Below the pieces are notes generated by a model that saw only the letters and a list, made by a program, of their open reading frames with translations, had not been told where the DNA came from and made no database searches. Source: a virus. Taken from it: a DNA stretch of 44,823 bases. The translations under genes and the position numbers were made by a program. Positions 1 through 44,304 of the stretch are shown one piece after another (the stretch's first letter is position 1; each line of letters begins with the position of its first letter). The stretch lies in the IMG/VR virus record IMGVR_UViG_3300017917_002205, positions 1-44,823 of that record; one strand, written 5' to 3'.

Positions 1-1077
1 AGAAGCGATCAACATATCTAAGATCTCAAGATCAATCTCTAAAGAGATGTACTCAGACATTACAGCTGTTAATTCAGCTTCAGCATCCAATGAATGGTAT
101 GCATTTAAGTCTTGAGCGAATTCAGGAGTCCATTGTGCTTTCAATTTCTTGGTTTTAGCAACAATAGCTTCAGATCTCATTTGAACGTTGATTTGAGGAA
201 TAACGATAGTTGAAGCAGACTCAGCGTTTGGAGTTGAATAAGAAGCACCAGCTTCGAAATCACCACGAGCATTATCTTTAGTTACTTTATTGTATTCAAC
301 TAACCAAGTAGATGCTACTGAAGGAGCAGATCCAGTGAAGTAGAAGTTAACTACAGCACCGCTATAAGTTGTGAATTCTTGTAATAAAGTTGACAATGCG
401 AAAGTAGAACCTGAAGTTGCTATAAAGCCTCTTACACCTAAAACATCAATATCAGAGCTGATAGATGCGGTAGGGATAGATACTTTTTGGATTCTTCCTC
501 CAGCAGCAGAAGCAGAATAGTCACTGTTGAAGTTTACATCAGCCCAAGAAGCAGAAGCTACAGTGTAACTAGCAGCAGATGAACTTACTGAAGAAGAGAA
601 TTGGTTAGTAGAGTAAGTGAAACGACCAGCTCCGTATAAAGCACCTGTTGAAGTGTTACCGAAGTTAGCAGAAGAATCACCATACATTGAACTGTTTGCA
701 GCGAAAGGATTCTTATCAGTACCGTATTGGAAATCTAAGAAGAATACTAGACCTGAAGGTAAGTTCATTGGTTGAACTGAAACGAATTCTTTAGCAGCGA
801 TTTGACCGAATACTTTACGTACTAAAGGTAAAGCGATACCAGCCCATTGCTCACCAGTACCGGTTGTGAAGCTAGCACCAGTTCCAGTTTGTGATTGCTC
901 AATAACCAACTGTTTAGCTTGGTTCTCAAGAATCATTGACATATTATTCTTTTCAGTTTCGTTACTGATGTTATTTAAAAGACCAGTAGCTCCCCATTTT
1001 TTTGCCAATCTAGCAGCGTCAGATTGCAAAGACTGCCATGGGTTAGCAGATTCTAATAATGTTTGTACGTTTGACAT
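1..1077 (-). CDS. 23: Major capsid protein gp23, 3' end cut off by the window
   Basis: This is the HK97-fold major capsid protein of T4-like phages, which forms the hexamers of the head shell. I translated it by hand from the ATG at 1075-1077. The frame stays open for 359 codons to base 1, so the C-terminus lies outside the window. The N-terminus reads MSNVQTLLESANPW. Further on, a stretch with RKVFGQIAAKEFVSVQPM followed by NLPSGLVFFLDF is the typical gp23 signature, and the last visible residues (ISLEIDLEILDMLIAS) also match the family. It follows the scaffold gene after 29 bases of A-rich leader without the TATTTATAA motif, in the T4 order 20-21-22-23. In T4 the N-terminal part of gp23 is removed by gp21 during maturation, and the same is expected here. 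Confidence 0.95.
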   Translation of the reverse strand, partial: MSNVQTLLESANPWQSLQSDAARLAKKWGATGLLNNISNETEKNNMSMILENQAKQLVIEQSQTGTGASFTTGTGEQWAGIALPLVRKVFGQIAAKEFVSVQPMNLPSGLVFFLDFQYGTDKNPFAANSSMYGDSSANFGNTSTGALYGAGRFTYSTNQFSSSVSSSAASYTVASASWADVNFNSDYSASAAGGRIQKVSIPTASISSDIDVLGVRGFIATSGSTFALSTLLQEFTTYSGAVVNFYFTGSAPSVASTWLVEYNKVTKDNARGDFEAGASYSTPNAESASTIVIPQINVQMRSEAIVAKTKKLKAQWTPEFAQDLNAYHSLDAEAELTAVMSEYISLEIDLEILDMLIAS

Positions 1078-1106: not shown

Positions 1107-2318
1107 TTAGATTAAGCCTGCAAGTTTTTGGAACCTTTCAACCATTGCATTAGTTTCCATCACAGGCTGTTTTGATGTACCACCAATTGTTTTAGATGCA
1201 AATGATTTGTTTTCTCTCACCAACTCTCTCTTGTCTGATTTGTTTAAACCAGCAGATAAAGTTTCGTAAACTAACTTAGTTTCTTTTACAGTCTCCGCAT
1301 TGTCAAATGCAGAAAGTACTTGTACTTTTTGTGCTTCTGTCAAATTCTTAGCTTTGAAGATTTTGTTAGTGTAAAGTAATTTAGAATTAAGAAGGTTAAC
1401 TTCGTTTAAGTCTGCTTTTAAAGTTTCGATTGTAAGTAAAGCTTCTTCAAGTTCACTTGAACCTTCTTCTTTAGCTTTCTCAGCAGCTTTCTTAAGCATT
1501 GCTTTCTTTTCATCAGCAGATGCTTTCATAAACCCAGCAGCACCAGCAACACCCAAAGCAGAAATTACCATAGCAACATACTTAAGCATTTCAGCACCTT
1601 GCATTCCGAAAGAAGTTACATCTTCGTTTAATTCACTTTCTTCAGTTACTTCTTTGCCTTTGGTTGCACCTTTAGCTTTAGAAATCATAGCTTTTACAGC
1701 TCCTACTAAGGCAGAACCTGCTAAACCAGCACCAGCACCAAGGCCGCTAATAATAGCCTGTGCAGTATGCATGTTGTCAGTTAAACCTGTTTGAACAAGT
1801 TGTTGAGCTAAGTCGTTGATAACGTTTTCGTCTAAGTTTTCTTTGTTTTCCATCATTGGTTCTTCTTCTGGAGCTTCTTCTGTGTCCATGTCCATATCCA
1901 TTTCTGGAGTTTCTTCTGATCCTGGTCCAGCTTCTAGCTCACCAGCTTCAATCATTTCGTCAACTACACTTGCAATAAATGCTTCCAAGTCTTCAGCAGT
2001 CATGTTCTCAAGATCGATTTCTTCTTCCTCTTCTGTCTCCTCTTCTTCTCCAGGCATTTCCTCAGTTTCTTCTTCTGATTCATCCTCAAGTTCTTTAAGA
2101 AGTTCTTCAAGGTTGATTTCTTCCATAGAATCGGTATCTTCGTGTTTTACTTCCTCCATAGTGTCGTCTTCTTCCATTTCTGTTAATTTCTTTTCAAGCA
2201 TAGATTTCAAATGTGGAGTGAATGCTTCCTCTAATGCAGCTTTAGCATTAGTGATAGCCACTTCCTTTACCGCTTTTGCATCTGCAATCGCTTCTTTGAA
2301 CAATTCTCTGTTTGTCAT
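1107..2318 (-). CDS. 22: Prohead scaffold (core) protein, gp22-like
   Basis: This is a 403-residue main scaffold candidate, directly upstream of gp23. It is longer than T4 gp22 (269 residues). The first 160 residues are extremely acidic (long Glu/Asp runs around 45-160). The C-terminal third (about 295-360, with EVNLLNSKLLYTNKIFKAKN) is the gp22-like helical core found in marine T4-like phages. It ends in MVERFQKLAGLI, close to the N-terminal tag of the protein at 41596-42243. Two hydrophobic glycine/alanine-rich helices (about 190-210 and 245-263) are unusual for a scaffold. Leu-x-Glu sites at E164 and E232 bracket the first, suggesting peptides released by gp21, as T4 gp22 is degraded to internal peptides. 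The leader has a weak AGGA before ATG. Assignment rests on position plus the C-terminal region. Confidence 0.85.
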   Translation of the reverse strand: MTNRELFKEAIADAKAVKEVAITNAKAALEEAFTPHLKSMLEKKLTEMEEDDTMEEVKHEDTDSMEEINLEELLKELEDESEEETEEMPGEEEETEEEEEIDLENMTAEDLEAFIASVVDEMIEAGELEAGPGSEETPEMDMDMDTEEAPEEEPMMENKENLDENVINDLAQQLVQTGLTDNMHTAQAIISGLGAGAGLAGSALVGAVKAMISKAKGATKGKEVTEESELNEDVTSFGMQGAEMLKYVAMVISALGVAGAAGFMKASADEKKAMLKKAAEKAKEEGSSELEEALLTIETLKADLNEVNLLNSKLLYTNKIFKAKNLTEAQKVQVLSAFDNAETVKETKLVYETLSAGLNKSDKRELVRENKSFASKTIGGTSKQPVMETNAMVERFQKLAGLI

Positions 2319-2506: not shown

Positions 2507-3232
2507 CTAAAATATTTTATTTAATTTATTTCTATTCCCTACATGTCCCATATGTCCGTACTTTTCAGCTATTTTTGTTGTTATGAACAACGGCTGTAGG
2601 TTTTTAAAATTAAAACATTCTTTCTGCTCTTCTAGATTTTCTAAGTTAAAAAAAGCACACGGTCTTATATGATCGATTTCCCACACTATTCCGTGATTAC
2701 CCCAAGTCATACCTGCTAGAAACTGCTTCTCTAGATAACCAACCGCTTCTTCTATAGTACATCCAAGTAACCCAATCGCCGAGTGTTTCTTGCTCACTTT
2801 ACCGCCTGTTGCGTGTCTTTTTATTGCGTCAAGTAACCTCATTCTTAATAGATACTTTACTTTATATTCTGGATCGTTATTCTTTCGTGTTCTTGTGTAA
2901 TTATTCTCCCACTCTTTTCCGCTCCCCTGTCTCCATGCATTGTGCCGCTTTGCTGTGCATTCCTTGCATCTACTAGCTAACCCATACTTTCCTGCTTTTA
3001 ATTTACTATACTGTTCATGAGGTTTCACTTCCTTACAGTCTGTGCAAGTTTTTAAACCAGGTTCATCCGGGGTTTTCCACCTTGTCGGAGATTTCTTACT
3101 GTAGTAATGTTTATCGTGATTTGCTTTACAGCAAACCTTACATTCCCTCTGTAAACCGTCTTTACGTAGCTTATTCTTACTAAACTCTAATAGTGTCTTC
3201 AGTTTCTTACAAGTTGGACATAGTTTCTCCAT
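2507..3232 (-). CDS. HNH homing endonuclease, free-standing, between genes 21 and 22
   Basis: This 241-residue protein has two N-terminal CxxC...CxxC zinc knuckles (CPTCKK...CKVC at about 5-34 and CTDCKE...CKEC at about 62-88). The C-terminal HNH nuclease core has WEIDHIRP, then an Asn-rich FNFKNLQPL with the late His/Asn ligands. This is the usual layout of phage HNH homing endonucleases, which cut an uninfected allele and spread by recombination. It sits between two genes that are neighbours in T4-like genomes. It has its own TATTTATAA box 3 nt before ATG and a strong terminator behind it, so it looks like a self-contained insert. The zinc knuckles probably help bind DNA. The target site cannot be read from this window. 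Confidence 0.88.
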   Translation of the reverse strand: MEKLCPTCKKLKTLLEFSKNKLRKDGLQRECKVCCKANHDKHYYSKKSPTRWKTPDEPGLKTCTDCKEVKPHEQYSKLKAGKYGLASRCKECTAKRHNAWRQGSGKEWENNYTRTRKNNDPEYKVKYLLRMRLLDAIKRHATGGKVSKKHSAIGLLGCTIEEAVGYLEKQFLAGMTWGNHGIVWEIDHIRPCAFFNLENLEEQKECFNFKNLQPLFITTKIAEKYGHMGHVGNRNKLNKIF

Positions 3233-6422: not shown

Positions 6423-8312
6423 TTATTCCCTAATTTGACTCTCGTCTAATAGACCATTAGCTTTTCTTTCTCCTTCAAAAATCATCTTTTTCTTAGATGG
6501 AATTTCTTCTAATATTCTTGTGATTTTAGAAAATTCTCTCTTAGTTGCTTCCATTGCATACGGTGAAGTTTTATCTCTACCATACCCTTCTTGGTCGTCA
6601 ACTTTGTTTGCTTTTCTACCAAGTCTATCCATTCCTAAAGGATCTTCTGTACCATTGATAAAAGATGCTTTTTCTCTAGGACGGCCCATTTCTGGTTCGT
6701 CTTCATTGTAACCATCCGGTACTGAGCCTGGTCTTGTGTAGACTCTTCCTTTACCGTATGCTGTTGCAATGTCGTGAGGAGTTCCGTAAGTTTCTCCAGA
6801 TTCTAAAGGATCATTTCCTTCGTTTTCTATTTGAGATAATCTGAATTTACGCTTAGCATCTTCTCTAACCAGGTCTCTCATTTCTTCATACTCATCCTGG
6901 CTTAAGTGGAAGATATTATCATAAATCCAATCAGAAGAAATTAACTGAGATTCCATCATTTGAGTTGCAAGATCCATTTTTTCTTTTAATAACGCTACTC
7001 TTTCCTGATCATAAATGATTGAAGGAGTGGTTAATGATAATTCAAAATTGGTTAATGCTTCGTCTCTATATCCTTGAATGTATAAATGCACGAATGCAAT
7101 CTTATATAACTCAGAAACTATGATTCTCTGTATTTTTTCTATTGTTCTACCAAAGCGAATATCTTCTGCAGCCAAAGTAGCCTTTCCTTGTAATTTTTCA
7201 TCATAACCAAGGAATGCTTTTGGTATTCTTAAGGCAGCAAATAATTTATCCCTAAGGTAATTTACGTCTGTAATACCGTCATACTGTAATCCTCCTAAAG
7301 TATCAATTTTAGTTGCAGTGTCATTACCACGTACCGGGATATAAAAATCCTCCATTAAGTTCTGCATGTTGTACTTTAAATTATATTCACCTGTCTGCTG
7401 GTCGATATAAGGAGTACGCTTCATTTTAGTAATAGCCTTCTGCATGAAGCCTTCAACTTCATTAGGAGGAATACCACCGACATTCATGTAGAAAATTCTC
7501 TTCTCAGGAGCTCTTACAATTCTATGAACTAACATTGCATCTTCCATCAAAGTATACTGCTTGAATAATTTTCTAGCAGGTTCAATGTAAGAACGTCCAT
7601 AAGGTAAGAAATTAACGTCTGTTAAAAGACGGAAGTGGGCTATTTCGTAATTGTCGAAATAAATAGATTTGGCATCGTGCTGATTAGGAGTTTTAAAGTA
7701 TCCATAAGTATCAGCGGCCAAGCCGTCTGGGTCATAACGGAATCTAACAGCAGTTGGATTTTCTGAATCATAATGTTCTTGTCTTTCTATATTGAATGCT
7801 GAGAATGGAATTACATTATAAACACCGTACTTTTCTGAAGCTTCTAATTTCAAGAAAAAGTCTCCGTATTTACACATGTTTCTAATCCACCAGCTTAAAT
7901 TAAATTCAACATTTAATACATCATAAAATAAATTATAAAGTATTTTCTGTACATTCTCATCATTTGATCTGATGTGAAGCACTTCTCCCATATCATTCTT
8001 AAGAGTAGATTCTTCTGATAGAATATCTAAGGCTGAAGCAATGATTGCATCAGTATCCATAGCATCATATTCAGAATATAACTGTGTTCTTAAAGTCTGA
8101 TAATTGAAAGATGATTGATATCCGTATAACGAAGTCGGGGAAGTTGTATAAATTCTGTTGTATCTTGCTACTAAAGAATTATTTTCTAATTCTCCAGACA
8201 TCTGAATTTGATTTGTATCGGCAACTTTAAGTTGATCACCCCCAACGTTCCTTATAATTACATCTGTTGAGAATAATCTACGTAGTCTCGAAAATACACT
8301 AGTGTCTGCCAT
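6423..8312 (-). CDS. 20: Portal vertex protein gp20
   Basis: This 629-residue protein is the dodecameric portal, through which DNA enters and leaves the head and on which the prohead is nucleated. The length is slightly above T4 gp20 (524). Family signatures include the N-terminal YRxxxTTSPTSLYGYQ-type region, DILSEEST, a LTDVNFLPYGRSYIEPARK segment, and VGGIPPNEVEGFMQ followed by a conserved Lys/Arg-rich strand, then LRIPKAFLGYDE. The C-terminal 120 residues are charged and Gly/Pro-rich, probably disordered. It directly follows the terminase gene; in T4 the sheath (18) and tube (19) genes separate them. A TATTTATAC motif lies 18 nt before ATG. Confidence 0.95.
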   Translation of the reverse strand: MADTSVFSRLRRLFSTDVIIRNVGGDQLKVADTNQIQMSGELENNSLVARYNRIYTTSPTSLYGYQSSFNYQTLRTQLYSEYDAMDTDAIIASALDILSEESTLKNDMGEVLHIRSNDENVQKILYNLFYDVLNVEFNLSWWIRNMCKYGDFFLKLEASEKYGVYNVIPFSAFNIERQEHYDSENPTAVRFRYDPDGLAADTYGYFKTPNQHDAKSIYFDNYEIAHFRLLTDVNFLPYGRSYIEPARKLFKQYTLMEDAMLVHRIVRAPEKRIFYMNVGGIPPNEVEGFMQKAITKMKRTPYIDQQTGEYNLKYNMQNLMEDFYIPVRGNDTATKIDTLGGLQYDGITDVNYLRDKLFAALRIPKAFLGYDEKLQGKATLAAEDIRFGRTIEKIQRIIVSELYKIAFVHLYIQGYRDEALTNFELSLTTPSIIYDQERVALLKEKMDLATQMMESQLISSDWIYDNIFHLSQDEYEEMRDLVREDAKRKFRLSQIENEGNDPLESGETYGTPHDIATAYGKGRVYTRPGSVPDGYNEDEPEMGRPREKASFINGTEDPLGMDRLGRKANKVDDQEGYGRDKTSPYAMEATKREFSKITRILEEIPSKKKMIFEGERKANGLLDESQIRE

Positions 8313-8330
8313 TGCTATTAATCAATATAA

Positions 8331-8339
8331 GTATAAATA
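8331..8339 (-). promoter_or_regulatory. TATTTATAC start motif before the portal gene
   Basis: The coding strand has TATTTATAC, a one-base variant, 18 nt before the portal ATG and directly after the terminase stop codon. Confidence 0.4.
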
Positions 8340-8340
8340 G

Positions 8341-9915
8341 TTAATAAATCCAGCTTATATCTTCTTTTCCTCCTTTTCCATCGTCTATTTCATAAGGGTT
8401 TCTTACGTTGGACGGTAGGTAGGCAGCTTGGTAGGTTGGTTTTGCCGTGGAAATATTATTGAGCATGTTACGGGTTAGGTCCATTCCCTGCTGTCTGAAT
8501 TTTAAAGCAGTGTCTCTGATGTACATTCCTATACCAAAAGACATTACTAAGTCATCATTATAACCATGCTGTGCTTCTGCTCTACCATTCTTCCATACAA
8601 ATACTTTCATTTCTTCAATCAAGCGTCTGGATTGAATGGTTACGGATTTTTCATTAACGTATTCTTGAAATTTACCAACAATAATTGGTCTGGTTCTTTG
8701 GTTTGTTGAGAATCCTGCTACCAGGCTTGAGTTTGGATCGTATTGATCAAAGTAAGATTCTGCTGTAATGTTACCATTTCTTGGAGAATAGTAAAGATTA
8801 CTGTAGCCTCTATCGATAACAGTCTGAATTGTTGACCATCCTACAGATGCATTCTCAATTACTAGTAGTGCATCATTATATTCACTTGCTATTCCCACAA
8901 GTAGATGACCAAATTCCTTTGTTCCTAATTGTCCTCTGTATTCTCCTACCTGTACGTTGTTCTCAACATCGATAATATGGAAGGCAGAATAGTCTTTTCC
9001 ATCACCTCTAGCCACGTCCGCTACTACCATATAGGATCTTGAGTAGTCTGCCGGTTCCCAGATCCATAAATTCTGATCTGCACCGCGTCTCTCCATAGGT
9101 TCTGTGACGTAGGTCTGTTGGTAGAACTCTAAATACTCTCCGTAGAAGACAGTATCTCCTGAGGTTGAGAAATCACAGTCACACTCCTGTGCTGCAAGTC
9201 TTGGATCTCCTAGTAATTCATCTTGTCTTTTTCTCCATTCATCGTTTCTTTCCGGGTGTACGTACCAAGGTAATTTAATCGGTAGAAAATCATTCTCTCC
9301 TGATTCAGCTCTTACCCAGGTCTGGTGAAACCAGTTACCGGTACCGTATGGAGTTGATAATACAATCGCTCCTCCTCCAGTTGCTAAGGTTTGCTGTGCT
9401 GATGCCCATGTTTCTGCAATGTTATCAATGAAGGCAGCCTCGTCAATTAGTAGTAATGATACAGCTTCTGAACGAGCAGAGTCTGAATTTGATGATTTGG
9501 CTTGTATTTTTGACCCGTTTGACAGTCTTAGAGACAGTTTATTATGTTCTACTGCCGGGACTGTTAACCAAGATGGTAGATTTTCATACATAAACTGCAC
9601 TTTTGATACAAGATTTCGTGCGGTTGCCTGTGTTGTTGCAAGGGTTAGAACGTTTTTATCTTTGTGAAAAAGCATTAACCACAGTGCATATCCTGCTCCT
9701 AAGGTGGAAATACCTAACTGTCTTGACTTTAAAACTATAGAATAAGGGTGATCTTGGAAGTGTTTTAGTACTTTTTCCTGAAAAGGATATAGGTGAAATA
9801 AGATCCTACCCCTCTGAGGATGTTGTATAAAACAATACTTCTTCATAAAGTGTACTGGATCTACAACACACTTTACATATTCCTGCCTTATAACTGCTTT
9901 TAAGTCTTGACTCAT
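8341..9915 (-). CDS. 17: Terminase large subunit gp17 (DNA-packaging ATPase/nuclease)
   Basis: This 524-residue motor protein packages concatemeric DNA into the prohead through the portal and cuts it. The ATPase part shows an adenine-side segment (HLYPFQEKVL), a Walker A at about 63-70 (KSRQLGIS) and a Walker B (LLLIDEAAF, 154-162). The RNase H-like nuclease has its first Asp in VVADVARGDGKDYS (D300), then LVIENASVGW and a late Asp region (GYNDDLVMSFG). The Walker A lacks the usual GK[ST] lysine seen in T4 gp17 (SRQLGKTT). The lysine is at the front instead, as in deviant Walker A loops. The N-terminal extension of T4 gp17 is shortened. No small terminase was identified in the window. Confidence 0.95.
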   Translation of the reverse strand: MSQDLKAVIRQEYVKCVVDPVHFMKKYCFIQHPQRGRILFHLYPFQEKVLKHFQDHPYSIVLKSRQLGISTLGAGYALWLMLFHKDKNVLTLATTQATARNLVSKVQFMYENLPSWLTVPAVEHNKLSLRLSNGSKIQAKSSNSDSARSEAVSLLLIDEAAFIDNIAETWASAQQTLATGGGAIVLSTPYGTGNWFHQTWVRAESGENDFLPIKLPWYVHPERNDEWRKRQDELLGDPRLAAQECDCDFSTSGDTVFYGEYLEFYQQTYVTEPMERRGADQNLWIWEPADYSRSYMVVADVARGDGKDYSAFHIIDVENNVQVGEYRGQLGTKEFGHLLVGIASEYNDALLVIENASVGWSTIQTVIDRGYSNLYYSPRNGNITAESYFDQYDPNSSLVAGFSTNQRTRPIIVGKFQEYVNEKSVTIQSRRLIEEMKVFVWKNGRAEAQHGYNDDLVMSFGIGMYIRDTALKFRQQGMDLTRNMLNNISTAKPTYQAAYLPSNVRNPYEIDDGKGGKEDISWIY

Positions 9916-10856: not shown

Positions 10857-11314
10857 GTTACAACTTCATCTAATTGCTGCTTTGTCCAGTGACTGTAATA
10901 GTCTGTTAATTTAAGACTGTTTGACTTAGAAGTCAAGTCTGCTAGGTCTTGAACTACCCATAAATAACAATCCGGGAATGTGGTTGTTACTCCGTTAATT
11001 ACAAAAGGGTTCCTTGGATCATTATCTAAAACTACTTTATTGTCAGGTATAAAAATTTCATTAAGACTCTTAGTTTTAATTTCTAAAGTTTCAATACTGT
11101 AATTTTCGTAAGCTGGTAGATAAAAAATACAGACTTTATAAGTTATTATATCTGCATCTCTTATTTGATTTTCTATATTATCAAGGTCTGTCTCCTGAAT
11201 AGTGTATTCTCTATTATTAATAGCTGTTCTAGCAAAGGGACAGATAGGTTTATTACTTAGTTCTTGCTTTGGTGCAGTTAGGTGGTTAAACCACTTATCA
11301 AGACTTATTACCAT
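10832..11314 (-). CDS. Unknown conserved protein with CPFARTA motif
   Basis: I do not recognise a defined family for this 160-residue protein. The N-terminal part has WFNHLTAPKQ followed by PICPFARTA (about 24-31), a segment I associate with a small group of uncharacterised phage and bacterial proteins. The C-terminal half is rich in aromatic residues (PDCYLWVVQDLADL and a Tyr-Ser-His-Trp-Thr segment near 142). No signal peptide or membrane helix is seen. It overlaps the upstream HiPIP-like gene by 17 nt and the cupin-like gene by 25 nt. Confidence 0.6.
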   Translation of the reverse strand: MVISLDKWFNHLTAPKQELSNKPICPFARTAINNREYTIQETDLDNIENQIRDADIITYKVCIFYLPAYENYSIETLEIKTKSLNEIFIPDNKVVLDNDPRNPFVINGVTTTFPDCYLWVVQDLADLTSKSNSLKLTDYYSHWTKQQLDEVVTWRNLTKI

Positions 11315-11732
11315 CTTTTTTATCCGTTATCGGACCTCCAACAACCCAGGCATCACAAGTTCTTGCAGCTGCACATTTAAACTTAAGGAACCTACAGTAA
11401 CCTAAATCCCCGGCTTCAATAACATCAAAAGGATCTTCAGAACCTTCATCATCACCTATTCCCTTTGCAATACAGTCTAAAGTCTTTTTAGTTATATCAA
11501 ATGCTGCACAATTACCACAGAGTGATTTCTTAGCTTCTTCTATAGAATCTAATTTCCACATATCTGCTTTAGCTTGCCAGAATTTCTCATTAGGTTCGTT
11601 TGGATTTAATGGACCGTACCCATACTCATTAATTGCCTTCTGTCTGTTCTGAAGGTTTAGTTCGATGTTCTGCGTAGGTGCAGGGCATTTTCCAATCTCT
11701 GCTTCGCTTAATATGTCTAATAGGTTAATCAT
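11298..11732 (-). CDS. HiPIP-like cysteine-rich protein with capsid-type N-terminal tag
   Basis: This is 144 residues from the ATG at 11730-11732, which overlaps the upstream stop as ATGA; a start 15 nt further upstream is possible. The N-terminal helix MINLLDILSEAEIG has Leu-Ser-Glu (E10), like a capsid-targeting sequence with a gp21 site. Four cysteines follow the spacing of high-potential iron-sulfur proteins: C72-x2-C75 (SLCGNCAAF), C87 and C113 in a GYCRF context. Further Cys occur at 120 and 126 (KCAAARTCDAW). The middle (GYGPLNPNEPNEKFWQAKAD) is typical of a conserved phage family of unknown function. I infer a 4Fe-4S or zinc site. Its neighbours include a ferritin-like protein two genes upstream. 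Confidence 0.7.
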   Translation of the reverse strand: MINLLDILSEAEIGKCPAPTQNIELNLQNRQKAINEYGYGPLNPNEPNEKFWQAKADMWKLDSIEEAKKSLCGNCAAFDITKKTLDCIAKGIGDDEGSEDPFDVIEAGDLGYCRFLKFKCAAARTCDAWVVGGPITDKKDGNKS

Positions 11733-12484
11733 TTTGTTTTTCCCCAAGTTTTTCCTTTTCCAGGTGTTTTACATTGTGCTGCTGTTGGTCTACAAGCAGG
11801 ATATTTAGAGCGTTTCTCTCCTTCTTTTCTTCCGCAGGATTTATAACCTCCGCTTCCGTCTGGTGCGTTACAGTCTACCCATCCTTTTTCTTTTCCTTTT
11901 GCTCCTTGACGGCTAAACCACTTATGTAATGATTCAGCTTCTTCTAAATTTTCAACTTGAACTAGGTTTATTTTAATTTTTTTATTTCCTAGAGCCCAGT
12001 TAGCTACAAGTCTATGATGTCCATCATAAATTACTTTTTCACCGTCTGGGAATTCAACAACATTTATAATAGGTAATTCTTTTGTATTTGTAATTATTTG
12101 TTTTACTTTATTGCTTTGGATATTAGGTTGTGTAATATGAATGTCTTCTGTATTCACATACTGTTCCTGATCTTTATCTTTATTTTTTTCAAATAATTCG
12201 ATTACTTCACTCCAGCTATGTTGACTTTTATTAAAGATGCCTTCTATATTTTTTGCATCATCAAATAGCTTTCCCTTAGGTAACTCATCAATTTTTTGTT
12301 CTGCTGAAAAGGCTGTATCTTCTTTTAAGTCTTTCCAAATCTCACCTTGACGGCATCTAACCACAGCACCTGATTTATAGGCTGAAGGTTTGTCGTATTT
12401 ACGATCAGCAATACGAAGACACCTATCACGCTTCTCTTTTTCTTCTAAAAGAATCTGCTGTAGTATGTCTGTAAGCTTGGTCAT
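11729..12484 (-). CDS. ParB/sulfiredoxin-fold protein in a mosaic with cysteine modules
   Basis: This 251-residue protein has three parts. It starts with a capsid-type tag, MTKLTDILQQILLEEKE (Ile/Leu-Leu-Glu at 13-15). A short Arg/Cys module follows (about 19-52, with RKYDKPSAYKSGAVVRCRQG). The core (about 108-177) is ParB-like: VNTEDIHITQPNI, then VIYDGHHRLVANW (DGHHR at 154-158), the motif used for nucleotide or DNA binding in ParB and Srx-type proteins. The C-terminus (198-251) is a small Cys/Lys module (GWVDC...KSCGRK...YPACRPTAAQC). ParB-fold proteins in phages include nucleases and CTPases, and the activity here is unknown. Start tag and mosaic build suggest virion cargo. Confidence 0.7.
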   Translation of the reverse strand: MTKLTDILQQILLEEKEKRDRCLRIADRKYDKPSAYKSGAVVRCRQGEIWKDLKEDTAFSAEQKIDELPKGKLFDDAKNIEGIFNKSQHSWSEVIELFEKNKDKDQEQYVNTEDIHITQPNIQSNKVKQIITNTKELPIINVVEFPDGEKVIYDGHHRLVANWALGNKKIKINLVQVENLEEAESLHKWFSRQGAKGKEKGWVDCNAPDGSGGYKSCGRKEGEKRSKYPACRPTAAQCKTPGKGKTWGKTK

Positions 12485-12491
12485 AAGTTTG

Positions 12492-12614
12492 TTAAGAAAA
12501 TAATAAATCGAATGTTAAAGTTCTCTTCATTAACAAGTAAGCAGTGTATTTAGGAGGTAAGTTGATACTTATTCTTTTTCTTGCTCTGCTTTTTCTTTGT
12601 CTTTTTAATTTCAT
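12492..12614 (-). CDS. 40-residue very basic protein
   Basis: This short frame has its ATG overlapping the stop codon of the ferritin-like gene (TAATG), a common translational coupling. The product begins MKLKRQRKSRARKRISIN and has ten Arg/Lys in its first 14 residues, then a more hydrophobic tail (YTAYLLMKRTLTFDLLFS). It could bind nucleic acid or be packed with the DNA. No homologue is recalled. The support is the overlap, the otherwise empty 129-base gap and the strong composition bias. Confidence 0.45.
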   Translation of the reverse strand: MKLKRQRKSRARKRISINLPPKYTAYLLMKRTLTFDLLFS

Positions 12615-13159
12615 TAGAAGTAAGTCTGTTCGTAATATAATATTTCAAAGGAATTAGCAACGTTTATAAGTTGTGCTGCATTTAATAGGTCTGAATATTC
12701 TGCTACTGATTCTACTTGCCCGGTTCTTAGTGTTTGTAAGAAATCAAACGTAGATAAGTCTGAGGAGAATATAGTTGTTGATACGTTGTTATAAGCTAGT
12801 AATAAATCTAATTCTAATTTATATGCTTTGTTAACAATATCAATGAGGTTTGTAAAGTCTGGTATTAATTTGATTGGTGCAATCACCGGAAGTACATTCC
12901 AATCTACCATGTATTTTTGTAGCATCTCTGCATGAGTTAATTCATTAGCAGCTTCTTGTGTGAAGAATGCAGTTGCTTTTAAATACCCTTTATCTGCACA
13001 CCAGTTTGCTGCATTTCTATAAAAGTAATGAGCGGTATATTCGTCTTTTAGTCTCTCAGTAAGCATTAAAACCACCTGAGGGTCTAAGGTAACTGGTATC
13101 ATAACATCAGCAGGATTTGCTGATTGCAATTCATTCAAAGTTTTTAACTTAGTTTTCAT
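12614..13159 (-). CDS. Ferritin-like diiron protein with possible capsid tag
   Basis: This 181-residue four-helix protein is of the ferritin superfamily. Iron ligands line up with bacterial ferritin: E40 in LKDEYTAHYFY, E73 and H76 in AANELTHAEML (ExxH), E116 in YKLELDLLLAY, and a Gln148-Val-Glu150 segment in the fourth helix. The 33-residue distance between the first two Glu equals that of E. coli FtnA. Ferritins oxidise Fe(II) with oxygen or peroxide and store iron. The N-terminal extension MKTKLKTLNELQSANP carries Leu-Asn-Glu (E10) and is not part of the ferritin fold. It looks like the tags of neighbouring proteins, so it may send the enzyme into the head. An exact TATTTATAA lies 9 nt before ATG. 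Confidence 0.85.
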   Translation of the reverse strand: MKTKLKTLNELQSANPADVMIPVTLDPQVVLMLTERLKDEYTAHYFYRNAANWCADKGYLKATAFFTQEAANELTHAEMLQKYMVDWNVLPVIAPIKLIPDFTNLIDIVNKAYKLELDLLLAYNNVSTTIFSSDLSTFDFLQTLRTGQVESVAEYSDLLNAAQLINVANSFEILYYEQTYF

Positions 13160-13168
13160 ATAATGTTA

Positions 13169-13177
13169 TTATAAATA
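13169..13177 (-). promoter_or_regulatory. TATTTATAA start motif before the ferritin-like gene
   Basis: This is an exact motif in the 20-base gap, 9 nt before the ATG, a longer spacing than the usual 3. Confidence 0.5.
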
Positions 13178-13179
13178 GC

Positions 13180-13974
13180 TTACCAGTAACCTGAGTAAGA
13201 TCCTTTAAGTCCTAATAAAGAAGCGTATCTTGGTAGGCGGCAGGCCCAATATCCTGGTTTAGTTTTATCTTTTTTACCTGCGCAGTTGTGTCTTTTTGCA
13301 AAGTTCACTCTTGCCTCAGAGTCGTTTATTTTAGCTTTTAGGCCGGTTGTTCCACCAAAAGAAACTTTCTTAATACGTTTGGTTTTTGGATCTTTTACGT
13401 ATACATAAAATTTCTTAGAACCACCACGCTTTGGTTTACCTAACGGTACTTCTTTCCCTTGATATTTAGCTTCTCTTAACTGCCCAGCAATCGCTTGTGT
13501 GAATCCATACTGCCTTAATTTCTGCTCTAACTCCTCTAAAGATGCAGCATCAAAATCATATTCGTTAGTATCTACATAATAACCGTCCCGTCTCTTATAG
13601 ATTTCTGCCATATTGCCTTCACGGTCTCCGAAAGTTGCAATATGATCGTTAGAGTTAAAAGTTCCTTCGTCAAGCATTGGTAAGTCTAAAGGGACTAAGT
13701 CTCCTTCATATAAACCGTATTCACCTAAGTGAGTTTCGGTTATGATCTGCTTATCATCTGCCCCTACATCAATGATGTTTCTGGAATATAAAGTTCTAGC
13801 TTCTTTCCATAAGTTTAGAAAAGCAGGTGAACCGTACCTAAAGGTATTTTCTGTGAGTGGTTTCTTATTTTTAATATGGTAAAGCAGGTTCTCAGAGAGA
13901 GGTTGCTGGAAGGTTATTCCTTCGTTTAATAGAGGAGCTTTTCCTCCGCAAGTATTACATCCACAGCTGCACAT
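13180..13974 (-). CDS. Mosaic head-cargo protein with many L/I-x-E sites and a DUF5872-like end
   Basis: This 264-residue protein is built of short modules. It starts with a Cys-rich MCSCGCNTCGG. Leu/Ile-x-Glu tripeptides end at E18, E28, E42, E80, E103 and E168. The segment after E42 (FRYGSPAFLNLWKEARTLY) and the C-terminal module (about 169-253, KKFYVYVKDPKTKRIKKVSFG then CAGKKDKTKPGYWACRLPRY) recur in structural or core proteins of other T4-like phages. The C-terminal module resembles DUF5872. Six sites in one small protein fit stepwise cutting by gp21 into peptides. It follows an exact TATTTATAA by 3 nt. Confidence 0.7.
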   Translation of the reverse strand: MCSCGCNTCGGKAPLLNEGITFQQPLSENLLYHIKNKKPLTENTFRYGSPAFLNLWKEARTLYSRNIIDVGADDKQIITETHLGEYGLYEGDLVPLDLPMLDEGTFNSNDHIATFGDREGNMAEIYKRRDGYYVDTNEYDFDAASLEELEQKLRQYGFTQAIAGQLREAKYQGKEVPLGKPKRGGSKKFYVYVKDPKTKRIKKVSFGGTTGLKAKINDSEARVNFAKRHNCAGKKDKTKPGYWACRLPRYASLLGLKGSYSGYW

Positions 13975-17782: not shown

Positions 17783-20700
17783 TTAGAATTCTGGTAAAGA
17801 TAATGATTTTCTTTTTGTTCTCCAAAGATTTAAGATACTTTCTTTTTCTTCCGGAGTAACATCCTGCATATCTAGGTAGTTATTTAAAACATCCTTAAAA
17901 GGAGTTCTTGTCTTTTTAGCTTTTAAATACATTCCCTGAAGCATTGGTTCTAATTCTGACTGAAGTCTAAAATAGTCTGCTTTAGGTAAAAGCTCCCAGT
18001 CAATCATTTGTCTTAACATTTCATCATCCGGAGTCTCTTTTGCAGGTACTAAATTAACACCCATCTGAGTTAGATGCTCAATTTCATGCCTAACTACATC
18101 GATTAGATCTTCATAAATTCTTGACCAGAACTGAGGTAGTGATCTAGGATCAACTTGGAATCTGATTTCAAGATATGCTAAATCTGGTTCATCCTCATCA
18201 TCATCATCATCGTCGCTTCTTTGAGATTCTGCATCTGCTCCACCATCAACTTTGTAAGTTCCTTCTTCTGTTTCTTGAACTAAAAGATCAGCACTTAAAG
18301 CAAAATCTAATGGACGGCCTTTTGCATCTTGGGTTTCATATTCTTCTTCAAAGCTTAACTTGCCTTCTGTACCGTCATATTCTTCTTTCCAGGCAGCCAT
18401 AATATCCGTAACTACTCTTCTGGTAACTGAATCATAAGCTCCTTCTGTTAATGGTTCAGAATCTTCTTCATTAGGTGCAAAGCCTTTTATTCTTCTAATA
18501 CTATTATCACCTTCTCTATCATTCTCCCAGGCTCTAAAGATCATATTACCATTATCGTAAGCTTCTCTTTCGATTTCCTTTAAATAATCGTCTTCGTTGA
18601 TATTAGTTGTACCGATACCGCCCAGTCTACCTTCAAGGTTTTGACAGTGGTGAATCATTTCATGAGCAAAAGAACGTAAAATATCCTTAGGGTGTCTCCC
18701 TGTTACATAAAGTACAATTACTTTATTGTTAGGATCGTAATATGCGGTTCTCCCAAGAGTATTTTTAGCATTGTCTTCATCCTCTACAAATTCTACCTTA
18801 GGTGCAGGAGTAATGTTTAAACCTTGCTCTACCATGTAATTAGTTAGTTCCTCAATAAGCGGTTCTAATTCTTTCTGTACCGGGGAATCAAAAGTAAAAT
18901 CTGAAGTATAAAGACCTTCTGTCTGTTCTTTTTCCTCTTCTAAAGGTTCATACCCTGAACCATACGGTGCTGATTTACCTTCTTTTTCCTGTATTGCGTT
19001 ATCAGGTAGAATGACTAATACATCTTCTCCAACTTTTTCAATTTTTGCTTCAGGGAATGCTTTAGTAATAAATGCTCTATATAAAGCATCTCTTTGAGTG
19101 CCAAAATCTTCTGTTCCTTTTTTAGAAGGAGTGTAGCTAATAGCTTTAAATCTACCTTTAGTTAATTTTATATAGTGTTTAACTATATCTACGATAGTAG
19201 ACATTACTCTGTATAACTCTCCTTTATTTGTTACTATGGTTGCTGATGCTACTTTTTCACTATCCTCTTCATCTTCTACGCCAAAATCAATATCAAGAAC
19301 AGGGTGGTTAACTGATTCGTTATCAATGAATCTTGTGGCTGTAATATTTACTTCGTACTTAGTTCCTTTGTCTGTTTCAAACTTAGTGGTGATAGTATAA
19401 CCCATATCACCTGTTTCTTCCCACTTATAAGGCTGTAGGTTTGCTTCACCTACTTCATTTAATTCTTCAAAAGTCATCTTAGGACTACTAGTCATGAAGT
19501 TTGGTTTTCTCATGATAGTCTTAGCAATGGCTTTATTCGTCATATTTAAGAAAGGAATGTTTAAATTTGTTGCTTTATCGTTTGCAACAATCTCATCGTA
19601 TTTCTTGAAGAATTCAAAAAATTCTTTTTTATTTCTTCCAAGTCTTTTAAAGAATCCAATCAACTGTGCAAGAGTAATATCAGATTCTCTTCCGGTTAAT
19701 CTATCAAAGACATGCTTGGAAGTTAAATCAACATCCACTGGTGCAAGTTGTGTATCGGCAAAATTATCTGCTTGTTTTAATTCAGCAGGAGTTACTGATT
19801 CATTCTTAGAATGGAAATTAATAAACCAGTTGGCTTGCTGTTTATCTAACGGTGTAGCATTTTCTCTATTTTTAAATTTCTTAGCTTTCTCAATAGTAAC
19901 ATCACCGCCGTATGCTTTTGTAATTTTAGCTTTAAAGGTTCCCGGTGCTCCGTTATCAGTTCTTTTTCCTTTATATGCTTCTGTAAGGTCTTCTTTTTTA
20001 CCTTTTGAAAGAGCTTGAATGTATTCTTTAACGGTTACTCCTTTAGGTAGGAAAGTCTCAATTGCTTGAATGTCTTTATTCTTAATAGCGGTTCTTAATC
20101 CACTAGCAGATAATCCTTTTAGGTTACCGATATTAACCGGGGTTACATGTCCATATTTTTCTTTGTTCTTCTCAACACTCTTCCAACGATCCTCCTCATC
20201 TTTTCCAAAAACGGCAAGATATTTATTTTCCGGATGTGCTTCAAATTCTTGGTATGCATCTAAAACCGGAGTTGGATTTTGTGCTAATTTAATTTCAACG
20301 TTGTCCGGTATTAAGCCTTTTTGTTTGTAAAGATTCCAAACTGCCATTGCCTGACTTGCATCAACAGGTACTTGACCTTCTTTTACTCTTGGCTGTTTTG
20401 AAACATAAACATAAACCTTGTTAACCTTTGGTGCAATTACCTGAATTGCTTTTAGGTGACTGGCATGAGGTGGTTTGAATGCTCCAGGAAATACTGCAAT
20501 GGTCTGTTTCCCTATTTCAGCTTCTAAGATTGGTCTTATTAAATCTACGATAAATGAACCGTATTTTTCTTCCAAGGTAGCAACCGTGTCTAAAGCCATT
20601 TGTTTATTATCGCCTTTAGGAGTTCCAGCTTCCCCTGCATTAATAACTACTAAAGACCTAAATACGCCTTTTATACGATTCATTGAGCGGGGATTTTTTA

Positions 20701-22390
20701 TTTTAGATTTAATATCTTTTAGTAGATCCTTCCAATCTCCATCCAGTTTATAATTTTGAAATAGTTTTAATACATCGTTCCAGTTGAAAGAAGTCCAGAT
20801 TTCATTTCTACCTACCTCTTTAAAGTCATCTGTTAGTGTGACTACCCGTAATGTTAAGCCTTTGCTAGATAAATTAAATTCAAGTTCCTGGTTTTTTCCT
20901 AGTTTAGGTATATTAGTGATGCCTAAGCGTTTGAATATTTCTGCTGGGTTTTCTTCTAATAGTATAGCTTTTGCCAGTCCTACTAATAAACCTTGCTTCT
21001 CTGCAGGTAGATCTAAGAAGCCTTTTCTATAGTCACTTTCTTCTTCAGAAGCAACTATCATATTGTCTATTTGAACTGTTAAGCCCGGGTATCCTTCTAT
21101 TGGGAATTGAACTATTACAATATCCCCTGTACCTGCTGCTTTTTTCCCTATATGACGGCCAGCTGTAAACGGTATAGTTACATCATCCGGTAGTGATGAA
21201 ATAAAAGATGCAAAATTCTGTTTAAGTTTCTTTTTATCTTTTTCATCTCCTTCAATATGAATAATTAGATCCAGGTCGCCGTGATCTGGTTTAACTGTGG
21301 TGTTATATGAGCCTGAGATTTTTGCTGTTTTAAACCCTGGGAATTTATCTAAAACTTTCTTAATATAGGCTTTAAGAGTGCTCTCTACTGCTGCTCTAGG
21401 TATTCTGTTTGCTCCAATTGATCCGGATTCAGTTAATGTCTGGTATTTTATTAACTTAGAATCATCCGGTAAATACTTGCCTTTTAATCCTAATCTTTCT
21501 TGACTATTAATCCAGTAATCTTGTAAGTCTTCAGGTATATCTGCTCTTGTAGAATCTAAAATTTTCAAATACCTATCTATAATTTTATTATACTCCTCTT
21601 TAGGTAAATTTGCTTTAAGGTACTCTCCAAGTTTAAAATAGTCATTTAGGGTGTCTTTATCTAGATTGAAACCATAAACCTTATTTAGTAGGTCAATTGC
21701 TTCCTGTGAGTTACTTGCAACTTGTTCACCAGTGGCTTTATCAACTACACCAGTTCCGTGTCCAAACGTATAGTCTTTATTTGCGAATAAAGAAAGCATT
21801 AACTGCGTTCTATGAAGCCCTTTTACATTACCGGCATAGGTGTTAGAGTAGTAGCTAAATGTTAACCAATCTAAGTTACCTATATTAACATCTGTTTGCA
21901 CATATTTAGGTAGTGGCTTTTTCTTAGCATCGTATTGCTGTATGCTGCAAAATAATGCTCCTGAGCCAGATCCTTTTATATCTACTTCAATATCGTCATA
22001 AGCATCGTTAATTTTATCTCCAATAAGTGCAATAATTGCTCGTAACTTAATTTTTTCCGGCGATGCTGTCTTTGCTCTTTTTGTGATACCAGCTACTAAC
22101 TCATTATATTTTTTTTCATCTAATCCCCACCCTTTAAGGTCTGGGGTTTTACCGTCCGGAAAGAAGTTTTTAACATCATATGCTAAGTCAATATCACCAG
22201 ATAGTTCTTTTTTACCTACTGAACCTAGTTTTTCGAATTGTTTAAATGTGGGTGCCTTTGCGGGGAATAACTTAGATAATTTATCTACAAATACTTCTAA
22301 TGTAGGTTCTATATCGGCTTTTGCAATTGGACTAGTTGTTCCAAATACATTACCGCCTTCTTTTATTATCGCTGAGGTAAGCTTGGTCAT
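17783..22390 (-). CDS. Giant multienzyme polyprotein: two nucleotidyltransferase-like, one NMNAT/cytidylyltransferase-like and two zincin domains
   Basis: This 1535-residue protein has modules in this order. Nucleotidyltransferase-like 1 has G56-S57 and D66-x-D68, with a third Asp near 167. Leu-Thr-Glu follows (E321). Nucleotidyltransferase-like 2 has SGSYN, D372-x-D374 and D442. Leu-Glu steps lie near 479 and at E623. A cytidylyltransferase/NMNAT-like domain (628-795) has FPGAFKPPHASH (HxxH at 642-645) and GLSASGLRTAI (759-769). Leu-Thr-Glu follows (E804). Two unknown modules span 805-975. Leu-Asn-Glu (E979) precedes an unknown beta-rich module (985-1140). Zincin 1 has H1243-E-M-I-H1247 with ExxA near 1274. 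Leu-Thr-Glu (E1316) precedes zincin 2 (H1435-E-I-E-H1439). The N-terminal MTKLTSAIIKEGG resembles a capsid tag. I infer cutting by gp21. Activities are predicted from motifs only. Confidence 0.85.
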   Translation of the reverse strand: MTKLTSAIIKEGGNVFGTTSPIAKADIEPTLEVFVDKLSKLFPAKAPTFKQFEKLGSVGKKELSGDIDLAYDVKNFFPDGKTPDLKGWGLDEKKYNELVAGITKRAKTASPEKIKLRAIIALIGDKINDAYDDIEVDIKGSGSGALFCSIQQYDAKKKPLPKYVQTDVNIGNLDWLTFSYYSNTYAGNVKGLHRTQLMLSLFANKDYTFGHGTGVVDKATGEQVASNSQEAIDLLNKVYGFNLDKDTLNDYFKLGEYLKANLPKEEYNKIIDRYLKILDSTRADIPEDLQDYWINSQERLGLKGKYLPDDSKLIKYQTLTESGSIGANRIPRAAVESTLKAYIKKVLDKFPGFKTAKISGSYNTTVKPDHGDLDLIIHIEGDEKDKKKLKQNFASFISSLPDDVTIPFTAGRHIGKKAAGTGDIVIVQFPIEGYPGLTVQIDNMIVASEEESDYRKGFLDLPAEKQGLLVGLAKAILLEENPAEIFKRLGITNIPKLGKNQELEFNLSSKGLTLRVVTLTDDFKEVGRNEIWTSFNWNDVLKLFQNYKLDGDWKDLLKDIKSKIKNPRSMNRIKGVFRSLVVINAGEAGTPKGDNKQMALDTVATLEEKYGSFIVDLIRPILEAEIGKQTIAVFPGAFKPPHASHLKAIQVIAPKVNKVYVYVSKQPRVKEGQVPVDASQAMAVWNLYKQKGLIPDNVEIKLAQNPTPVLDAYQEFEAHPENKYLAVFGKDEEDRWKSVEKNKEKYGHVTPVNIGNLKGLSASGLRTAIKNKDIQAIETFLPKGVTVKEYIQALSKGKKEDLTEAYKGKRTDNGAPGTFKAKITKAYGGDVTIEKAKKFKNRENATPLDKQQANWFINFHSKNESVTPAELKQADNFADTQLAPVDVDLTSKHVFDRLTGRESDITLAQLIGFFKRLGRNKKEFFEFFKKYDEIVANDKATNLNIPFLNMTNKAIAKTIMRKPNFMTSSPKMTFEELNEVGEANLQPYKWEETGDMGYTITTKFETDKGTKYEVNITATRFIDNESVNHPVLDIDFGVEDEEDSEKVASATIVTNKGELYRVMSTIVDIVKHYIKLTKGRFKAISYTPSKKGTEDFGTQRDALYRAFITKAFPEAKIEKVGEDVLVILPDNAIQEKEGKSAPYGSGYEPLEEEKEQTEGLYTSDFTFDSPVQKELEPLIEELTNYMVEQGLNITPAPKVEFVEDEDNAKNTLGRTAYYDPNNKVIVLYVTGRHPKDILRSFAHEMIHHCQNLEGRLGGIGTTNINEDDYLKEIEREAYDNGNMIFRAWENDREGDNSIRRIKGFAPNEEDSEPLTEGAYDSVTRRVVTDIMAAWKEEYDGTEGKLSFEEEYETQDAKGRPLDFALSADLLVQETEEGTYKVDGGADAESQRSDDDDDDEDEPDLAYLEIRFQVDPRSLPQFWSRIYEDLIDVVRHEIEHLTQMGVNLVPAKETPDDEMLRQMIDWELLPKADYFRLQSELEPMLQGMYLKAKKTRTPFKDVLNNYLDMQDVTPEEKESILNLWRTKRKSLSLPEF

Positions 22391-38956: not shown

Positions 38957-38965
38957 TTATAAATA
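38957..38965 (-). promoter_or_regulatory. TATTTATAA start motif before the spike unit
   Basis: This is an exact motif in the 37-base gap after the sigma-factor gene. The spacing to ATG is 14 nt. Confidence 0.5.
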
Positions 38966-44226: not shown

Positions 44227-44230
44227 ATTG

Positions 44231-44304
44231 TGGACCATACAGGACTTGAACCTGTGACCTTCGCTTTATGAGAGCGCTGCTCTAACCAACTGAGCTAAAG
44301 GTCC
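44231..44304 (-). tRNA. tRNA with CAU anticodon (Met elongator or Ile2)
   Basis: A 74-nt cloverleaf can be drawn. The acceptor is GGACCTT/ATGGTCC with one T-T mismatch. The D-arm is GCTC..GAGC. The anticodon loop is CTCATAA (anticodon CAT). The T-arm is ACAGG-TTCAAGT-CCTGT and the discriminator is A. The top pair of the anticodon stem is a G-A mismatch. CCA is not encoded. The first pair G1-C72 excludes a standard initiator tRNA. Whether C34 is modified to lysidine (giving Ile) cannot be read from DNA. Confidence 0.88.

Follow-up and report, generated by a model that had tools for sequence, protein, structure and literature searches.

A ferritin of a T4-type phage with a predicted cleavable leader for targeting to the phage head

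A T4-type phage encodes a ferritin that begins with a ten-residue leader ending in Leu-Asn-Glu, and we predict, at a probability of roughly three in four, that this ferritin is packaged within the phage head. The gene lies in IMG/VR record IMGVR_UViG_3300017917_002205, the whole of which (positions 1-44,823; 44.8 kb) was analysed and is called the window here. A fuller account, in which the ferritin would be made late, directed to the head by a T4-type leader, cut by the gp21 protease and kept with the DNA as a shield against iron and ROS, is held with slightly less confidence but still as probable. An earlier note on this DNA had proposed a ferritin-like protein inside a T4-type capsid. That proposal is strengthened by a constrained L-N-E leader, a gp21-type protease, a place in the head module, an element that also precedes the portal gene, and parallel leaders in other phages, from which we infer the packing itself. 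The gene and its parts are as follows.

12614..13159, minus strand: ferritin open reading frame, FtnA-type non-heme ferritin of 181 aa with an ATG start at 13159 (Pfam, PDB sequence and fold matches)
13130..13159, minus strand: predicted capsid-targeting leader MKTKLKTLNE, codons 1-10, with a putative cut after E10 (conservation, pN/pS, T4 IPIII plan)
13088..13129, minus strand: variable spacer, codons 11-24, with the highest pN/pS of the gene (0.434); predicted new N-terminus after cutting
12617..13087, minus strand: ferritin bundle, codons 25-181, with E40, E73, H76, E116, Q148 and a fifth, C-terminal helix (alignment, model, Foldseek)

By sequence and predicted fold the protein is a genuine FtnA-type ferritin, for which iron oxidation and a 24-subunit cage are predicted. 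The reading frame matches Pfam Ferritin (PF00210) at 3e-19 and 69.8 bits (cut-off 24.5), and phmmer gave the V. cholerae ferritin 3qz3 as the best solved relative (1e-12), with the E. coli, H. pylori and C. jejuni ferritins matching as well. A structure prediction, proposed in the earlier note as a check, was built on 11 phage relatives and reached a pLDDT of 88.8 and a pTM of 0.82, with weakness only at about residues 1-20; a previous version built on six close sequences had a pLDDT of 62.5. Foldseek aligned the model to 3qz3 with a TM of 0.81 and an rmsd of 1.3 Å. The FtnA-type profile match is thus accompanied by a four-helix bundle and a C-terminal helix, which the model places at residues 170-180. 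This fifth helix is a requirement for the classical 24-subunit ferritin cage.

The residues E40, E73, H76, E116 and Q148, whose aligned counterparts in FtnA we take to be numbered E17, E50, H53, E94 and Q127, do not vary among 11 phage ferritins with identities as low as 48%, and every one of them sits in a well-predicted helix of the model. Because these ligands (Glu, Glu, His, Glu, Gln) align with FtnA and stay invariant, the A/B ferroxidase site is complete as judged from the alignment. The ligand set had previously been described as near-complete and to include E150; the five residues above make up the full site, and E150 varies, being Q or G in other phage ferritins. The third iron site of bacterial FtnA, site C, is missing, as its residues are replaced in the FtnA alignment (E49 by N72, E126 by G147 and E130 by S151); H-type ferritins do not need site C. 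The replacements therefore indicate a two-iron, H-chain-like site, and our claim is confined to an A/B-site ferritin. Identity as a Dps protein was also considered and rejected: the A/B ligands lie within the subunit, the fifth helix is present and the nearest solved folds are FtnA-type ferritins, whereas Dps has a fold without the C-terminal E helix and ligands at the subunit interface.

The extra N-terminal segment containing L-N-E, to which the earlier note had drawn attention, proved far better conserved than the stretch beside it. L-N-E occupies residues 8-10, and the leader is near-invariant in eight relatives, the T/S alternative in MKTKLK[T/S]LNE being the only variation in those at 72-94% identity. 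Calculated without correction from six distinct sequences, pN/pS is 0.036 in residues 1-10, 0.434 in residues 11-24 and 0.12-0.31 in the rest; synonymous distances between these sequences are near saturation, and the ratios rank the regions and are not exact estimates. The synonymous component is similar along the whole gene (pS 0.53-0.67). Because pN/pS jumps after E10 while pS stays even, the constraint acts on the leader peptide, independently of the ferritin body, and stops at the predicted cut; in these sequences the pattern marks a functional address that ends with E10. A mis-called start codon was rejected as a source of the segment, since the leader is conserved as protein while its codons change freely at synonymous positions, and since the open frame upstream of the ATG extends for at most 2 codons in the close relatives L001, L002 and L011-L013 and for 0 in L003 and L004.

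Dps binds DNA through N-terminal lysines, and K2, K4 and K6 of the leader are invariant within the clade. The basic N-terminus might on that account be a Dps-like DNA-binding tail and not a targeting leader, a reading we regard as very improbable: L8-N9-E10 is just as invariant, constraint ends sharply at E10, as for a cut site, and the leaders of other lineages are less basic (MIRSINE, MEKLKTQLGEINE). Instead, the segment follows the plan of a T4 head-targeting leader, a short N-terminal peptide ending in L/I-x-E, with the E at residue 10. T4 IPIII starts MKTYQEFIAE^A, and the ferritin leader shares its length, its MKT start and its hydrophobic-x-Glu end at equal positions. The internal proteins of T4 carry propeptides of 10-19 residues, the first ten residues of IPIII are enough for targeting to the scaffold core, with residues 8 and 10 controlling processing, and T4 gp21 cleaves after L/I-x-E (PMC9026906). 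The capsid-targeting sequence of T4 takes virtually any fused protein into the head (PMC7697877).

A gp21-type protease and a T4-type head are encoded in the same genome as the ferritin (PF03420, PF07068, PF07230).

1..1077, minus strand: gp23 major capsid protein (PF07068, 2.2e-35), incomplete at the window end
1107..2318, minus strand: gp22-like scaffold, Glu-rich, positioned between gp21 and gp23 and similar to the homologue in Flavobacterium phage immuto
3275..3892, minus strand: gp21-type prohead protease (Peptidase_S77; PF03420, 1.3e-32)
6423..8312, minus strand: gp20 portal (Portal_T4; PF07230, 7.8e-65)
8341..9915, minus strand: gp17 large terminase (PHROG 2, 3e-52)

The matches to Gp23, Peptidase_S77, Portal_T4 and terminase bear out the T4-type head surroundings assumed at the outset. 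On the minus strand the genes run in the order primase, exonuclease, a mostly unknown block, gp17, gp20, gp21, gp22 and gp23. A Pfam search of the gp22-like scaffold (1107..2318) returned no match. The protease itself begins MTKNLLIE, which by sequence comparison resembles LIE-9 in T4 gp21. By terminase, the nearest isolated phage is immuto (61% identical), and because immuto infects Flavobacterium a host among the Bacteroidota is likely for this T4-like phage. Immuto itself encodes leader-like proteins (immuto26A_178, 179, 184, 188, 194 and 195), and its head region yielded no ferritin. Two further genes were seen in the window. An HNH/endonuclease VII-like gene (2507-3232, minus strand), probably a homing endonuclease, separates gp22 from gp21 within the head cluster; the corresponding gap in L011 is without any ORF of at least 60 aa, and L013 has a homologue of the HNH gene. 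A single tRNA-Met (CAT) gene lies at 44230-44304 on the minus strand.

Genes on either side of the ferritin were also noted, two of them with leader-like starts.

11298..11732, minus strand: neighbour gene with the leader-like start MINLLDILSE^AEIGK (sequence and relatives)
11729..12484, minus strand: neighbour gene with the leader-like start MTKLTDILQQILLEE, then a DUF5872/ParB-like body (weak PF19197 match)
13180..13974, minus strand: upstream neighbour g13180 (PHROG 7595), with LLNE^GITF near its start

The SE^AEIGK of the first of these may be compared with T4 gp23, which has LTE-AEIGG at its propeptide boundary. The g13180 product has a Cys-rich start, MCSCGCNTCGGK, and a basic Cys-containing end, RHNCAGKKDKTKPGYWACRLPRY, common with PHROG 7595. 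In each of the seven close relatives the ferritin gene occupies the same position, with g13180 on one side and the genes towards gp17 on the other. Of 24 terminase relatives that extend 3.5 kb or more upstream, however, only one carries a ferritin, and its contig is identical to L002. The g13180 gene is conserved in ferritin-bearing and most ferritin-free relatives alike. The slot is empty in L097, and in L091, L092 and L096 it is filled by another leader-like gene, starting MENL[EQR]LLIRKVLEE. The ferritin gene is accessory.

Within the window, L/I-x-E occurs in residues 5-22 of 11 of the 22 head-side ORFs (expectation from internal windows 5.5; p about 0.01) and in 3 of the 19 other ORFs (3.5 expected). 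This modest, suggestive count is too weak alone, and relatives were therefore brought in. A stricter N-terminal motif was found in 76 of 389 ORFs of T4-type contigs (19.9 expected) and in 14 of 252 ORFs of contigs with no detected T4 portal or protease (7.2 expected; Fisher p = 2e-7 for T4-type against other contigs). The enrichment is support and not proof, because the stricter motif was picked after the gene arrays described below had been seen and because the contigs share ancestry.

The ferritin gene appears to share its timing with structural genes.

13170..13177, minus strand: promoter-like element TATTTATA before the ferritin start (repeat count, spacing, conservation)
8332-8339, gene strand: further TATTTATA site
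38958-38965, gene strand: further TATTTATA site

The window holds 12 copies of TATTTATA on the gene strand and 3 on the opposite strand, and 11 of the 12 sit 12-30 nt ahead of a start codon. The genes so preceded include the ferritin gene, gp20, g13180, a polyprotein gene and several tail genes, and the copy upstream of the ferritin is conserved in relatives. We regard TATTTATA as a probable late promoter element with very short 5' leaders. Since it also precedes the portal and tail genes, late expression of the ferritin is suggested. Read on the opposite strand, TATTTATA gives the T4 late box, TATAAATA.

The polyprotein gene (17783..22390, minus strand) encodes 1535 aa and carries L/I-x-E joints at its start (MTKLTSAIIKE^GGNVF) and as LTE at 319-321, LTE at 802, LNE at 977 and IQE at 1133. 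The LTE at 319-321 marks a split into two genes in L002, L011 and immuto (ORF1 aligning to residues 1-318, ORF2 to those from 322 onwards), and the indel breakpoints seen in relatives (802, 975-980 and 1135-1138) coincide with the LTE, LNE and IQE. The frame includes regions like polymerase beta and like the NadR nucleotidyltransferase. From its sequence, it is probably a polyprotein of head cargo with prohead-protease joints.

Leaders of this kind recur on other ferritins. A profile-guided scan gave 75 phage ferritin loci, among which three further lineages have different leaders that likewise end in L/I-x-E: MKTNRMGTALKMLKE in L027 and L028, MEKLKTQLGEINE in L029 and L030, and MI[RK]SINE in L038, L040 and L046. 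In L031, which goes with L029 and L030, the I-N-E has lost its E (ING), and L-G-E stands before the ING. The ferritins of L038 and L046 lie a few kilobases from arrays (L038:121-5671, L046:590-5686) of about ten consecutive genes that differ in content and share an IPIII-like leader with the consensus MKxxKLFEQF[IL]NE. The starts of these genes include MKKVKLFEQFLNE, MKLVKLFEEFINE and MKHIKLYEEFVNE, with a clear family likeness to the IPIII start MKTYQEFIAE, and the arrays apparently encode a large set of head-targeted proteins.

Many phage ferritins have no such segment, among them the L014/L015 group (61-63% identity), in which the initiator Met aligns at or after E10. In a second T4-type clade the ferritins are leaderless and lie between gp21 and gp22 (L042:3271-3795, L044:2771-3292, L049:1582-2115, L050:9968-10498 and L051:7728-8261), among small genes with L/I-x-E starts. 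Because several T4-type phages thus carry ferritins without the leader, capsid packaging is not a trait of the whole family, and a tree of phage ferritins gave no separation between repeated gain and repeated loss of the leader. The gp20-gp23 interval of T4, to which the leaderless ferritins map, holds the core genes 67, 68, 21 and 22, and loss of IPIII halves the rate of T4 head assembly (PMC9026906). The ferritin bundle could accordingly be a part of the prohead core, mainly an assembly or filler protein with incidental iron chemistry. We give this little credence, because all five metal ligands are invariant and close relatives manage without the gene.

The leaderless majority also bears on a cytoplasmic reading, in which an auxiliary ferritin stores iron and limits ROS in the infected cell and its N-terminus serves stability or DNA binding. 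Most of the phage ferritins found here are leaderless and many are encoded at a distance from head genes, the protein once matured is an ordinary ferritin, ferritins of freshwater phages have already been interpreted in this way (PMC6802176), and gut phages encode Dps and Mn-catalase (PMC8008677). What it leaves unexplained is that the ten-residue L-N-E leader is the most constrained part of the protein while the next fourteen residues drift, that other L/I-x-E leaders exist, and that the gene stands in the head module under an element common with gp20; we judge it improbable for the ferritin of the window.

A tblastn search with the window ferritin against 50,697 phage records gave no match; with E. 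coli FtnA as the query only six unannotated records were found, of which two are staphylococcal and may be host DNA. No close cellular relative emerged from two scans covering 84,980 prokaryote genomes. Weak fold matches were seen to the BFVD entries A0A6J7WPK9 and A0A6J7WIS1, named as prohead proteases of uncultured phages, which suggests ferritin/Dps-like domains fused to prohead proteases and a possible link between the ferritin fold and the head.

We envisage head packaging of the ferritin in five steps. First, transcription would start at the gene's own TATTTATA element, together with that of the portal gene and further late genes. Second, by analogy with T4, MKTKLKTLNE would dock the ferritin on the gp22-type scaffold core, possibly as a cage with outward leaders. 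Ferritin N-termini face the outside of the cage, and for that reason the leaders could be reached even after the cage has assembled. Third, the gp21-type protease, which is present together with its motif, would cleave after E10 to leave a mature ferritin of 171 residues inside the head. Fourth, DNA would be packaged around it. Fifth, the diiron site, whose ligands are in place, would oxidise Fe(II) with peroxide or oxygen and keep iron off the packed DNA, acting as a Fenton shield. The role of the ferritin in the head is probably such protection from iron and ROS. One property speaks against head targeting: the predicted mature ferritin is acidic (pI 4.4) and the internal proteins of T4 are basic.

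A 12-nm ferritin cage is too wide for the tail tube. This favours a function within the virion, or while the head is being filled, over delivery to the host, unless subunits travel, and there is no sign of travel as unfolded subunits; nor was any linked iron or defence gene recognised. If subunits did enter the host with the DNA, they could capture iron or weaken oxidative or iron-based defences at an early stage of infection. Precedent exists in T4, whose internal proteins are injected and comprise diverse anti-defence proteins with only the leader in common (PMC3012670), and which delivered beta-galactosidase fused to IPIII (PMC9026906); the ferritin gene is, moreover, accessory and swappable like those of the T4 internal proteins. 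We nevertheless consider ejection after packaging unlikely.

Should packaging within the head hold true, this would be the first ferritin, to our knowledge, that a dedicated signal directs into a phage head, a natural example of ferritin loaded into a viral capsid, and a concrete, testable source for the long-discussed iron in phage particles. It would suggest that some phages guard their packed DNA from oxidation, and it would point to a broad and little-studied repertoire of proteins that T4-type phages deliver to the head and that can be recognised from the leader alone. More tentatively, and with rather less than even confidence, virions may hold working, possibly iron-loaded ferritin cages amid the DNA, loaded by a general cargo system of leader and cut that these T4-type phages would also employ for many other enzymes, including multi-enzyme polyproteins.

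Among known systems, the closest are the T4 internal proteins IPI, IPII and IPIII and Alt, which share with the ferritin a leader of about 10 residues with an MKT start and a gp21-type L/I-x-E end, a gp21/gp22/gp23 head, accessory exchangeable genes, and leaders common to unrelated cargo in related phages. They are small and basic, whereas the phage cargo is an acidic, globular ferritin enzyme whose packaging is predicted. The FtnA proteins of E. coli, V. cholerae and H. pylori resemble the phage ferritin in fold (TM about 0.8, rmsd 1.3-1.7 Å), A/B ligands and fifth helix, and differ from it in sequence (about 25% identity), in their site C, which the phage protein has lost, and in lacking its N-terminal leader and phage head cluster. 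Ferritins and Dps proteins of aquatic and gut viromes (PHROG 16594; BFVD A0A6J5MFB8, 53% identical) belong to the same protein family and have been reported as cellular ROS-defence genes, with no head-targeting leader described in the open-access papers searched. A literature search for ferritins linked with a prohead protease and the virion turned up a single relevant case, that of the Vi01-like phages, in which gp217 of Sajous1, a ferritin-fold protein, was detected by mass spectrometry; in contrast to the window ferritin, its assignment is weak and fold-based, it has been suggested to belong to a tail entry system, and no leader was discussed (PMC10892097). We found no report in the open-access literature of a ferritin with a capsid-targeting leader. 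Phage ferritins are thus already known, and ferritin as cargo of a T4-type head appears to be new.

Encapsulins, with which the earlier note had drawn a parallel, likewise enclose a ferritin-like enzyme in an HK97-fold shell. Encapsulin cargo keeps a docking peptide that binds the shell, whereas the leader of the phage ferritin would act on the scaffold core and is predicted to be cleaved; the parallel thus holds as an analogy, and the targeting mechanism differs. Identity as encapsulin cargo proper was rejected, since the nearby shell gene is a T4-type gp23, no encapsulin gene lies beside the ferritin, and its N-terminal element belongs with the cleaved leaders of T4 and is not a retained loading peptide. 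If loaded cages are indeed present in virions, the phage head would be an enzyme compartment, a viral counterpart of the ferritin-filled encapsulins.
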